A DNA stretch of 64,000 nt from Candidatus Nitrosopumilus sp. (lineage in GTDB: Archaea; Thermoproteota; Nitrososphaeria; Nitrososphaerales; Nitrosopumilaceae), in assembly GCA_016125975.1 (NCBI GenBank), contig JAEFCZ010000026.1, positions 1 to 64,000 of the forward strand, written 5' to 3'. The notes beneath the pieces were generated by a model. The model had not been told where the DNA came from. It saw only the letters and a program-made list of their open reading frames with translations, and did no database searches. Positions 2,576-30,687 of this stretch are shown one piece after another. The stretch's first letter is position 1; each line of letters starts with the position of its first letter. The translations under genes and the position numbers were made by a program.

Positions 2576-4462
2576 ATGACTTTCAAATCGATAATTGATG
2601 AAATTGAAAATAATCTCAATAAGATTTTAGATGATCTATCTATTTCTGACGTAAAGTTTTCTGTAGAGCCTGCAAAACCCGGTTTTGGTGATGTCAGTTC
2701 TAATGTCACTTTCTTACTTGCAAAACAACTCAAAAAAAGTCCAAAAGAAATTTCTGAAATGTTATCTGAAAAATATTCTCAATGTATTAGTGCACTAGTA
2801 TCAAAACCTGAATCTCATCCATCTGGTTATCTGAATTTTTATGCTGATTGGCCAAAACTAAATCAATTAATTCTATCTGAATCTAATTTACCTGAATTCG
2901 GAGATGTTGATATTGGAAAAAATTCTACAATTGTTGTAGAGCACACCAGTGTAAACCCAAACAAAGCTCTTCACATTGGTCATATACGTAATATCATTAT
3001 TGGTGACACTGTTTCTAGAATTTTACAAAAAGCAAACTACAAAGTTAATGTCTTAAACTATGTTGATGATTCTGGTCTTCAAGTAGCTGACATTATTGTG
3101 GGATTCAAACATTTTGGATATGAAATTGAACCTCCAGAAGGAAAGAAATTTGATCATTATTGTGGTGATGATGTTTATGTAAAAACTACTGAAAAGTATG
3201 AACAAGACTCTAGTTTGGAGGAAATTAGAAAGAATGTTCTCAAAGAATTGGAGGATGGAAATTCTGAAACTGCACAATTTGCTGACAAAATCACACGTCG
3301 TGTATTGTCAAACCAACTTGAAACATGTTGGAATCTCTCAGTTTCTTATGATTGCTTGAACTTTGAATCTCAAATAATTCGTTCTGGATTGTGGGATGGG
3401 ATATTTGAAAAACTCAAAGAAATGAATCTAGTTGAATTTGAAAATGATGGAAAAAATGTTGGATGTTGGGTTATTCGTGGTGATGGAAAAGAAGAGGATA
3501 AAGTAATTGTCAGAAGTAATGGAACTGCTACATACATTGCAAAAGATATTCCATATGCTGCCTGGAAATTGGGGTTGTTAGATGATCCATTTCATTATGA
3601 AAAATACGAAAAAGAACAGCCAAACTCTCGTGTTTTGTGGCAAACCACATTAAATGACAGTGCTTTTGTATCTCAAAATTTCTCAGGTGACAAAGTAATA
3701 ACTGTAATTGATTCTCGTCAGGCAAGATTACAAAAAATCATTACATCATTAATGGGAAAATTCAAATCAATTCCTGATGCTTATGTCCATTTAGGATACG
3801 AATCTGTTACTCTAAGTTCTGATACTGCTAAAGTTTTAGGTATTGAAACTGATGGCAAACAAGCTCAAATGTCTGGAAGAAAAGGCTTGTATGTTAATGC
3901 TGATTCTGTTTATGATTTACTAAAAGAAAAAACCACTGAAGAGACAAAGAAAAGACATCCTGAAATGGATGACTCTGAGATTGAAAAAATCTCTCATGCT
4001 GTGTCTGTTGCAACATTACGTTATGAGATGATTAAGCAGGATTTGGACAAAATCATTGCATTTGATTTAACAAAATCTCTTAGTCTGGAAGGTGATACTG
4101 CTCCATACATCCAATATACTCATGCTAGAGCATCTAGAATTTTAGAGAAATCTGGAAGAGATTCTTCAATTGATGTTGACTTTTCTCTACTCCGGGAACA
4201 ATCTGAAATTGATTTAGTGAAAACAATAGGGCTTTTCAATTTACAAGTTCGAGATGCTGCAAATAATTTATCTCCAAAAGTAATCTCTAGATATTGTCAT
4301 GATTTAGCAGTTGCCTTCAATTCGTTTTATGAAAAATCTAAGGTTCTTGATCTAGGCGATGAGCGACTAGAAAACTCTCGTTTGTGTTTAGTTCATTCAT
4401 TCAAAATTACTATTGAAAAGGCACTAAATCTTCTTGGAATTACTGCTCCTGATAAGATGTAA
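2576..4462 (+). CDS. argS: Arginyl-tRNA synthetase
   Basis: 628 aa; HTSVNPNKALHIGHIRN class I signature. Confidence 0.95.
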   Translation: MTFKSIIDEIENNLNKILDDLSISDVKFSVEPAKPGFGDVSSNVTFLLAKQLKKSPKEISEMLSEKYSQCISALVSKPESHPSGYLNFYADWPKLNQLILSESNLPEFGDVDIGKNSTIVVEHTSVNPNKALHIGHIRNIIIGDTVSRILQKANYKVNVLNYVDDSGLQVADIIVGFKHFGYEIEPPEGKKFDHYCGDDVYVKTTEKYEQDSSLEEIRKNVLKELEDGNSETAQFADKITRRVLSNQLETCWNLSVSYDCLNFESQIIRSGLWDGIFEKLKEMNLVEFENDGKNVGCWVIRGDGKEEDKVIVRSNGTATYIAKDIPYAAWKLGLLDDPFHYEKYEKEQPNSRVLWQTTLNDSAFVSQNFSGDKVITVIDSRQARLQKIITSLMGKFKSIPDAYVHLGYESVTLSSDTAKVLGIETDGKQAQMSGRKGLYVNADSVYDLLKEKTTEETKKRHPEMDDSEIEKISHAVSVATLRYEMIKQDLDKIIAFDLTKSLSLEGDTAPYIQYTHARASRILEKSGRDSSIDVDFSLLREQSEIDLVKTIGLFNLQVRDAANNLSPKVISRYCHDLAVAFNSFYEKSKVLDLGDERLENSRLCLVHSFKITIEKALNLLGITAPDKM

Positions 4463-15027: not shown

Positions 15028-15621
15028 CTAGTATATCATTAAAAGAAATTGTAATTCAAACATGGATATCAAACTAGATTGAGGGTGAATTATAGAATTC
15101 ATTATGCTTGGTTTTCCTTCTAAATGACTTATTCCTAATGCGTGTCCTAATTCATGTCTGACAACCATTTCAATTTGGTTAGAAGTTAATCTATCTGCAT
15201 TATAGATCGTGATAAATGCACTTTGTATTTTGTTATTTTTGTATACAAGTTCAGTAAATCCATCATGTCCTGTGTTGGATTGTTCTTTTAGGTATACTGT
15301 AATGTAGTTTGAATTGTGAATATTTCCTATTTGTAATGTTGAAATATTGGAATTATTTATTGAATTTACATTATTAATTGCATCATTCCAACTTCTAAAC
15401 AACTCACTTCTTGGTTTCTCATTTGATTGAATTGTATTTTCAATTATATCCAGTTTGTATGGTTGAACATTTGCATCTCTCAATAACATAACTGAAATTG
15501 TGTCTTCGTCAATATCTCATGGAATGGCATAATTTTGTTCTTCATATCCACTTGCACTTGCCTGAAAACCACTAATGATCATAACTACCGTTATTATGAT
15601 TGCCCATGCCCCTAGCCTCAC
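15028..15621 (-). pseudogene. Secreted matrixin-like zinc metalloprotease, interrupted by in-frame TGA
   Basis: HELGHALGISH in ORF 15028-15489; upstream in frame VRLGAWAIIITVVMIISGFQASASGYEEQNYAIP*DIDEDTISV, stop at 15517-15519. Confidence 0.6.
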
Positions 15622-16432: not shown

Positions 16433-16774
16433 TTATTCTGTTGGTCTTGCATTACCAACTTCGCCTTTCTTTTGAAATTCTCTGTATTCTCCTATAATAG
16501 AACTACATTTTTCACATACGAATTGACCTCTTTCAATTAAGATCAAATTGTCTGCAACTTCTTCGTTAGGACTTTCTTCTAACTGGATTTTTGGTGGATT
16601 ATCAAACTCTGTTTCACAGTTATTACAATAATGTTTGAGCATCTTTTCAGTTTCAATTTTTCCTATTGGTGCTAGAAATAATTTTCCTACTCCTAAATCT
16701 GCTTTTTTTGCTTGTTCATCAGTAAGGTCTGCAATAACATATCCTCCAGAACCCTGAACTTTTAATTCCGCCAT
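16433..16774 (-). CDS. Hypothetical protein with zinc-binding Cys pairs
   Basis: YCNNCE and CEKC motifs. Confidence 0.65.
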   Translation of the reverse strand: MAELKVQGSGGYVIADLTDEQAKKADLGVGKLFLAPIGKIETEKMLKHYCNNCETEFDNPPKIQLEESPNEEVADNLILIERGQFVCEKCSSIIGEYREFQKKGEVGNARPTE

Positions 16775-16837
16775 TTCATATTGTTCTTTTTTTAGTTATT
16801 AAAATACTATTTGTGCTACGAAATTGTTTTTTAAAAC

Positions 16838-16937
16838 AACGAGACACACGGAAAGCGTATTTTTCCTAGGACGTTGACCTAACATGAAACGCTTTCCATA
16901 CCATCATTCTACGACGCAGAATAACGGTTTTCTCGTT
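16838..16937 (-). ncRNA. Candidate structured RNA (three-way junction); strand inferred
   Basis: Nested inverted repeats AACGAGA/TCTCGTT, GGAAAGCGT/ACGCTTTCC, ACC..ATTCT/AGAAT..GGT; no ORF. Confidence 0.4.
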
Positions 16938-17004
16938 ACATTCTATACGTTAAAATGATATTTAACAATGATCTTTATTTTCACCTGATGCTAACATCTC
17001 ATCT

Positions 17005-17193
17005 TTATGAGTTGATGAACACTTTGGAATTTGATATTGTTATCATTTCTGCCATGTTAATCGGAATTTCTTCTTTTTCTGAAATAGATATGATTTCCTT
17101 TTGATGTTTCTCTTTCAAATGTTTTAGAAATTCTTCTTCTTCGATGTTATTTTCTTTGTAATTGCAATCTGGAAACACACAGTTAAAATTCAA
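17005..17193 (-). CDS. C2H2-like small zinc finger protein
   Basis: CVFPDCNYKENNIEEEEFLKHLKEKH. Confidence 0.6.
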   Translation of the reverse strand: MNFNCVFPDCNYKENNIEEEEFLKHLKEKHQKEIISISEKEEIPINMAEMITISNSKVFINS

Positions 17194-17391: not shown

Positions 17392-18270
17392 ATGGATAAA
17401 ATAAAGCAAAACTCTCCTGTACTATTCTACTTTAATCATTCAAAAAAATGGCTTGTTAAAATATCAAAAAAGGATTCACTTCATACCCATATTGGAGTTA
17501 TCAAACATTCTGATGCTATTGGAAAAGAGTATGGTTCCCGACTTGTTACAAACAAGGACAAGTATGTCTATCTACTCAAACCCACAATGTATGACTATGT
17601 AATGAAAATACAACATGGTACTCAGATTGTTTATCCAAAAGATATTGGATATATTATTGCAAGAGCAGGAATTGAAAGTGGTCAGAAAATTTTAGAAATT
17701 GGAACTGGTAGTGGATCACTTACTTCTTGTGTGGCAAGTATTGTAAAACCCCGAGGACATGTTTACACTTTTGATGTTGATGAAAATTTTATGAAAATCG
17801 CTGGAAAAAATATCGAAAAGGCTGGAGTTTCAAAATATGTTACACAACATAACCAGGATTTGAAAACTGCAAAGAAAATGCCTCTTGAAGATATGGATGT
17901 GGCGCTAATTGATCTTGGCGATCCATGGGTAGTAATTCCTCAAGTTCGAAAGATGCTCAAAGGAAGTGGCTCTATATTTGCAATATGTCCTACAATGAAT
18001 CAATTAGAGAAATTAACTATGGCTCTAGTTGAGAATGAATTTACTGATATCGAATCCACTGAGCATATTTTACGTACTATAGAAGCTCGTGAGGGAAAAA
18101 CAAGACATTCATTTCAAGGCATAGGTCATACCAGCTATCTCTGCTTTGCAAGAAAGGCGTTTTTTGGAAGAGAATCAAAGAAATCTTCCTCAAAAACTAC
18201 AAAATCAGTTTCTAAAACAACAAAAACAACCAAAAAAACTGCCAAGAAAACAAGCAAGAAAACCTCTTAA
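17392..18270 (+). CDS. trmI: tRNA (adenine-N1)-methyltransferase TrmI-like
   Basis: ILEIGTGSGSLT SAM motif, PTMYDYVMKIQHGTQIVYPKDIGYI; Lys/Thr/Ser tail. Confidence 0.85.
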   Translation: MDKIKQNSPVLFYFNHSKKWLVKISKKDSLHTHIGVIKHSDAIGKEYGSRLVTNKDKYVYLLKPTMYDYVMKIQHGTQIVYPKDIGYIIARAGIESGQKILEIGTGSGSLTSCVASIVKPRGHVYTFDVDENFMKIAGKNIEKAGVSKYVTQHNQDLKTAKKMPLEDMDVALIDLGDPWVVIPQVRKMLKGSGSIFAICPTMNQLEKLTMALVENEFTDIESTEHILRTIEAREGKTRHSFQGIGHTSYLCFARKAFFGRESKKSSSKTTKSVSKTTKTTKKTAKKTSKKTS

Positions 18271-30539: not shown

Positions 30540-30579
30540 TTCTGATTTGCTTTATTATAGAGAAAATCTTAGATTTATT

Positions 30580-30661
30580 GCCGGAATAGCCAAGTGGTAA
30601 GGCGGCCGTCTCGAAAACGGCTACGTGCAAGCGTACGGGAGTTCGAATCTCTCTTCCGGCG
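30580..30661 (+). tRNA. tRNA-Ser (anticodon CGA)
   Basis: GCCGGAA...TTCCGGC acceptor stem, GTTCGAATC T-loop, anticodon loop TCTCGAAA, long variable arm. Confidence 0.95.
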
Positions 30662-30687
30662 TGTTTATAATTTTTAAAGTACATTAA

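Follow-up and report, generated by a model that had tools for sequence, protein, structure and literature searches.

A previously uncatalogued RNA, conserved across the archaeal family Nitrosopumilaceae, is specified by the minus strand at positions 16838-16937 of the window, a 64,000-nucleotide stretch of Candidatus Nitrosopumilus sp. DNA. We consider that this element, which we call the class I RNA, probably encodes a stand-alone small RNA that is built around a three-way junction and acts in trans, most likely as a ribonucleoprotein. The Nitrosopumilaceae are among the most abundant marine archaea and perform much of the ammonia oxidation of the ocean. A conserved RNA that has its own promoter sequence and exact coordinates, and is present in named lineages that have been cultured and sequenced, provides a handle for expression, probing and pulldown experiments; its covariance model is ready for use in genome annotation, and a new RNA of unassigned role is now testable in globally abundant nitrifiers.

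Structure and Strand of the Class I RNA

The original prediction, made from the letters of the window, described a structured non-coding RNA with a three-way junction, composed of an outer stem and two hairpins and locally richer in GC than its surroundings. All three helices are present where they had been placed, the GC content is 0.41 compared with approximately 0.26-0.35 in the surroundings, and homologues found throughout the genus provide both the conservation and the compensatory stem changes that had been proposed as its test. The element lies between a 62-aa ORF (17005-17193) and a 113-aa ORF (16433-16774), both on the minus strand. Folding of 16838-16937 yields −41.8 kcal/mol on the minus strand (z −6.55; none of 200 shuffles as good) and −26.2 kcal/mol on the plus strand (z −3.45), and the minus strand is the functional one. 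The second hairpin, P2, was correctly located by the original prediction, but the ATC/AAC internal mismatch assigned to it exists only on the plus strand. On the minus strand this apparent loop closes as G-U and U-A pairs, giving a continuous helix, ACCGUUAUUCU..AGAAUGAUGGU, G-U pairs included.

A 1-nt gap in the raw MAFFT alignment led RNAalifold to misplace P1 and to miss P3; a cleaner seed and a covariance model were used instead. Eighty-six class I copies were aligned, and the class I model, with 27 pairs, was built from 40 copies. Searched against the window's own genome, it matches the locus with an E-value of 1.3e-23, a figure to be read as rough, as are all E-values of these short-calibrated covariance models.

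In a sequence-only alignment (A3), 96.6% of the cells are paired, compared with 44-51% in slid controls; two-sided changes occur in 9 of the 27 pairs, against a shuffled mean of 2.6, and the covariation score was reached by none of 500 shuffles. This is the cleaner test, since a larger alignment of 102 copies had been fitted to the covariance model. In the latter, 94.3% of the consensus pair cells are paired (88.4% when shuffled), 19 of the 27 pairs show two-sided changes, and 144 two-sided cells are found where shuffling gives 31.8; none of 500 shuffles attains the observed covariation score. The outer stem P1 is paired in 98.2% of the cells of this alignment, with two-sided changes in five of its seven pairs. 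At least 70% of the consensus pairs are recovered in 96 of 102 predicted folds. Across the class I copies there are 241 G-U cells and 47 A-C mismatch cells, and the RNA strand is the better folder in 101 of 101 copies; the excess of G-U over A-C, coupled with the better folding of the RNA strand, fixes both the strand and the nature of the nucleic acid as RNA.

P1, P2 and P3 constitute the paired parts of the proposed structure, while UGCGUCGUA and UCAUGUUA would be expected to be unpaired. The sequence CAUGUUA, in the P3 bulge, is present in 94 of 99 copies, and the apical part of P3 is variable among class I copies. Two candidate apical P3 helices, AUGU/ACGU and UAGG/CCUA, are largely paired but were rejected for want of covariation support and because they are geometrically mutually exclusive. 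Coordinates and supporting observations are collected in Table 1.

Table 1. Features of the class I RNA locus in the window, with examples of class II RNAs elsewhere
Feature	Position	Strand	Remarks
Class I small RNA gene	16838-16937	minus	approximately 100 nt between P1 ends; covariance-model match 16833-16938
P1 outer stem, 5' strand AACGAGA	16931-16937	minus	pairs with 16838-16844
P1 outer stem, 3' strand UCUCGUU	16838-16844	minus	covariation in 102 copies
P2 hairpin ACCGUUAUUCU-GCGUCGU-AGAAUGAUGGU	16900-16928	minus	two-sided changes in 9 of 11 pairs
P2 loop UGCGU[C/A]GUA	16910-16918	minus	exact in 90 of 99 copies, nearly invariant
P3 stem GGAAAGCGU/ACGCUUUCC and apical region	16850-16897	minus	16889-16897 with 16850-16858; two-sided changes in 5 of 9 pairs
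Single-stranded motif UCAUGUUA, 5' side of P3 apical region	16880-16887	minus	in 91 of 99 copies
Dedicated promoter sequence GATCATTGTTAAATATCATTTTAACGTA, TATA box TTAAATAT at 16958-16965	16946-16973	minus	information content; pattern search of 60 genomes
GUUUU tract after P1, probable oligo-U termination site	16833-16837	minus	conservation stops within a few bases
Class II RNA, example	L201:2953-3047	plus	
Class II RNA, example	L155:3036-3164	minus	
Class II RNA, example	L206:1561-1679	plus	

Distribution and Novelty

By blastn at E <= 0.1, a 171-base query matched 68 of the genus's 95 genomes, in at most five places per genome. One Nitrosopumilus copy, for instance, lies on the minus strand at G006:C1:630615-630722. 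The class I model extends this range to 85 of 250 Nitrosopumilaceae genomes and 4 of 22 genera, including Nitrosopumilus, Nitrosarchaeum and Nitrosotenuis, and its refined form, run on 400 genomes from 82 genera of the class, matched nothing outside the family. An exact pattern combining the P2 loop with UCAUGUUA retrieved 66 stretches from a genome collection of 84,980 species, with titles naming Nitrosopumilus, Nitrosarchaeum, Nitrosotenuis or Nitrosomarinus, or thaumarchaeal, Nitrosopumilales, Nitrososphaeria or uncultured archaeal bins. Most genomes that bear class I hold a single copy. Some complete genomes of the genus, for example G094, G055 and G034, are without a class I match, and the RNA is therefore not universally essential; G055 and G094 carry the class II RNA described below instead. 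Two class I paralogues approximately 2 kb apart (L048:1887-1992 and 3905-4011) share the same loops and have diverged P3 tips.

A scan of Rfam (release 15), as proposed with the original prediction, found no family matching 16838-16937, whether by gathering score or by E-value; the best match overlapping the RNA reaches 13.2 bits, where the gathering score is 100. Neither SRP RNA nor RNase P RNA matched, either at gathering thresholds or when the region was scanned by E-value. The open-access literature searched yielded no description, although other reports may contain the transcript without a label, and neither the Rfam scans nor the open literature searched yielded a regulatory RNA of the Nitrosopumilaceae. 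By type, the nearest published analogue is Tan1, an abundant 229-nt ncRNA of marine group II Euryarchaeota (PMC5069720). Likened here by description, Tan1 is also a structured ncRNA of marine archaea with unassigned function, but it belongs to another phylum and has twice the length of class I. The multicopy cyanobacterial ncRNAs of the Yfr103 type (PMC5069720) are similarly stand-alone paralogues with a conserved fold and an unknown or adaptive role; they are bacterial and approximately 300 nt long, and the likeness is again one of description, with no relation known.

Promoter Sequence, Probable Termini and Independence from Neighboring Genes

A minus-strand TATA-like box compatible with an archaeal TATA element had been proposed upstream of the outer stem. 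Such a box, TTAAATAT, occupies 16965-16958 and begins 28 nt upstream of where the stem begins; its position is conserved at −27/−28 in 67 of 76 non-redundant copies. A profile of these 76 copies, anchored on the start of P1, shows approximately 0.9-1.0 bit of information per base from −40 to −11, compared with 0.03-0.06 further upstream. Before about −60 there is almost no conservation; it sets in approximately 55 nt upstream and takes in the block GATCAtt.TTAAATAT.ATTTT.aCgTA. When 60 whole genomes were searched with the 28-bp promoter pattern, allowing up to two mismatches, 47 matches were obtained, each directly upstream of a class I RNA, while the reversed pattern, used as a control, gave none.

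Judging from where conservation stops, P1 and the U tract that follows it appear to be the natural end of the RNA. The neighbors of class I genes occur in all four orientations, only 15 of 78 copies are followed on the same strand by an ORF within 200 nt, and no neighboring gene family is common to most class I loci. Bounded conservation, an exclusive promoter and varied neighbors together indicate a gene independent of its context, with what can be read as its own promoter and terminator.

The 28-bp promoter (16946-16973 and homologous places) is nearly unchanged while the gene changes its neighborhood. This points to promoter and RNA being moved, or selected, together as a cassette, which is perhaps under the control of a dedicated transcription factor.

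A Second Class of Related RNAs

Distant matches of the class I model led to a second RNA, class II, which shares with class I the ends of the outer stem (RACGAG..CTCGTT), the three-way plan and the GGAAA that starts P3. Class II copies of the Nitrosarchaeum/Nitrosotenuis type also have the P2 base CTRTCATATCTGC..GTAGACNGA of class I. Class II differs from class I in a longer P2 with an inserted extension, in the apical P3 element CGAAAAAAGATGGAAGCATCTAAAATTCG and in its genomic places. Its pattern can be written RACGAGG[AT]..CTATCATATCTGC..GTAGACAGATAG..GGAAAACACGAAAAAAGATGGAAGCATCTAAAATTCGTAGTTTTCC..CCTCGTT, and it has a TATA box of its own.

The class II model matches 65 of the 250 family genomes, including those of one genus without class I; it has no match in the window's own genome, and class II gave no Rfam match at either gathering or E-value thresholds. 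Both models recognize class I copies of other genera, and searches with the class I model pick up class II places weakly; because of these bridging copies, the 85 and 65 genomes are not cleanly separate sets. In one genome, a class I and a class II gene lie approximately 340 nt apart on the same strand (G053:C3:100670-100773 and 101111-101244).

We interpret the two classes as members of a single superfamily whose core is constant and whose tips are exchangeable. A broader and rather speculative reading would make this a superfamily of modular archaeal regulatory ribonucleoproteins, in which a constant core of P1, P2 and the P3 base carries exchangeable apical domains, the class I promoter serves nothing else in the genome, and the whole forms a family-wide riboregulatory system of ammonia-oxidizing archaea. 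We regard this as possible, though improbable in so complete a form.

Proposed Function and Alternative Explanations

Class I would represent a new family of stand-alone structured small RNAs, probably with a protein partner. In the mechanism that we propose, an RNA of approximately 100-106 nt would be transcribed on the minus strand from its own strong TATA promoter, would end at the oligo-U tract, and would fold into a three-way junction of a closing stem (P1), a hairpin (P2) and a long hairpin (P3). The covarying stems would serve as a scaffold presenting the nearly invariant, unpaired UGCGU[C/A]GUA of the P2 loop and CAUGUUA of the P3 bulge to a protein, perhaps a regulator or an RNA-binding protein, that recognizes both motifs and is titrated or guided by the RNA; extra gene copies would raise the dosage. 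A trans-acting ribonucleoprotein of this kind accommodates the three conserved stems, the short invariant loops, the placement irrespective of neighboring genes and the varying copy number better than a leader, a repeat or a coding gene would.

Among the alternatives, an antisense mechanism has the best standing, though we consider it unlikely: the RNA would act in trans by pairing UCAUGUUA(GG) with mRNA start regions, UAACAUGA containing an AUG, and so block translation. The most conserved unpaired stretch is indeed complementary to a start-codon context, and other microbes have multicopy sRNAs whose seeds are invariant. Searching eight genomes for the single motif CCTAACATGA, however, gave 33 matches, including eight in the RNA itself, while the reversed motif, used as a control, gave 30, and hence there is no enrichment; only one CCTAACATGA site spans an ORF start, recurrent sites lie inside the coding sequence of orthologues, and the strict conservation of the whole scaffold exceeds what a seed would need.

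Its size of approximately 100 nt, its structure, its archaeal origin and its internal unpaired stretches would also fit a C/D or H/ACA guide for modification of rRNA or tRNA, and archaeal guide RNAs as represented in Rfam are likewise small and structured. Unlike those, class I has no box motifs, no Rfam match and no rRNA complementarity above chance: no snoRNA family matches above chance, with C/D models at chance level only; the conserved 3' segment lacks an ACA box; the consensus contains neither box C (RUGAUGA) nor box D (CUGA), and no kink-turn is seen in the alignments; and in two genomes the loops complement the 16S-23S operons no better than shuffled sequences do. A guide function is accordingly very improbable.

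There is equally little reason to regard the element as a leader or riboswitch acting in cis on the downstream gene (16433-16774), even though a same-strand gene begins approximately 58-64 nt downstream both here and in the closest relatives of the window. Most other copies are followed by a different gene or one on the opposite strand, often only 10-25 nt off; P1 is succeeded by an oligo-U tract; and close relatives seem to carry a separate TATA-like sequence for the downstream gene. Since copies occur among unrelated genes, in all orientations and up to five per genome, the RNA is not a leader or riboswitch.

We give no greater credence to a small, MITE-like mobile element or repeat, with P1 as terminal inverted repeats, as might be suggested by the inverted-repeat ends and by the several dispersed copies in some genomes. 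Conservation reaches approximately 55 nt upstream past the inverted repeat, and downstream only to the U tract; moreover, the internal stems covary, single copies prevail, and no similar sequence was found in viral, phage and plasmid collections. A short protein-coding gene can be dismissed, as a stop-free frame crosses the RNA in only 19 of 99 copies and is missing from the other 80, the length of the RNA (97-110 nt) differs between copies in single-base steps, and the changes preserve pairs, not codons.

Other Features of the Window

The 113-aa protein encoded at 16433-16774 on the minus strand (MAELKVQGSGGYV...) contains CxxC pairs, has no Pfam match, and adjoins the RNA in close relatives too. 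A tRNA methyltransferase of the GCD14/TrmI type (Pfam E 1.9e-37), whose tail is rich in lysine, serine and threonine, is encoded at 17392-18270 (plus), and a small protein with a weak match to matrixin/M57-like metalloproteases at 15028-15489 (minus). The only gene that Rfam or ARAGORN identifies in the window is a tRNA-Ser (CGA) at 30579-30662 (plus).
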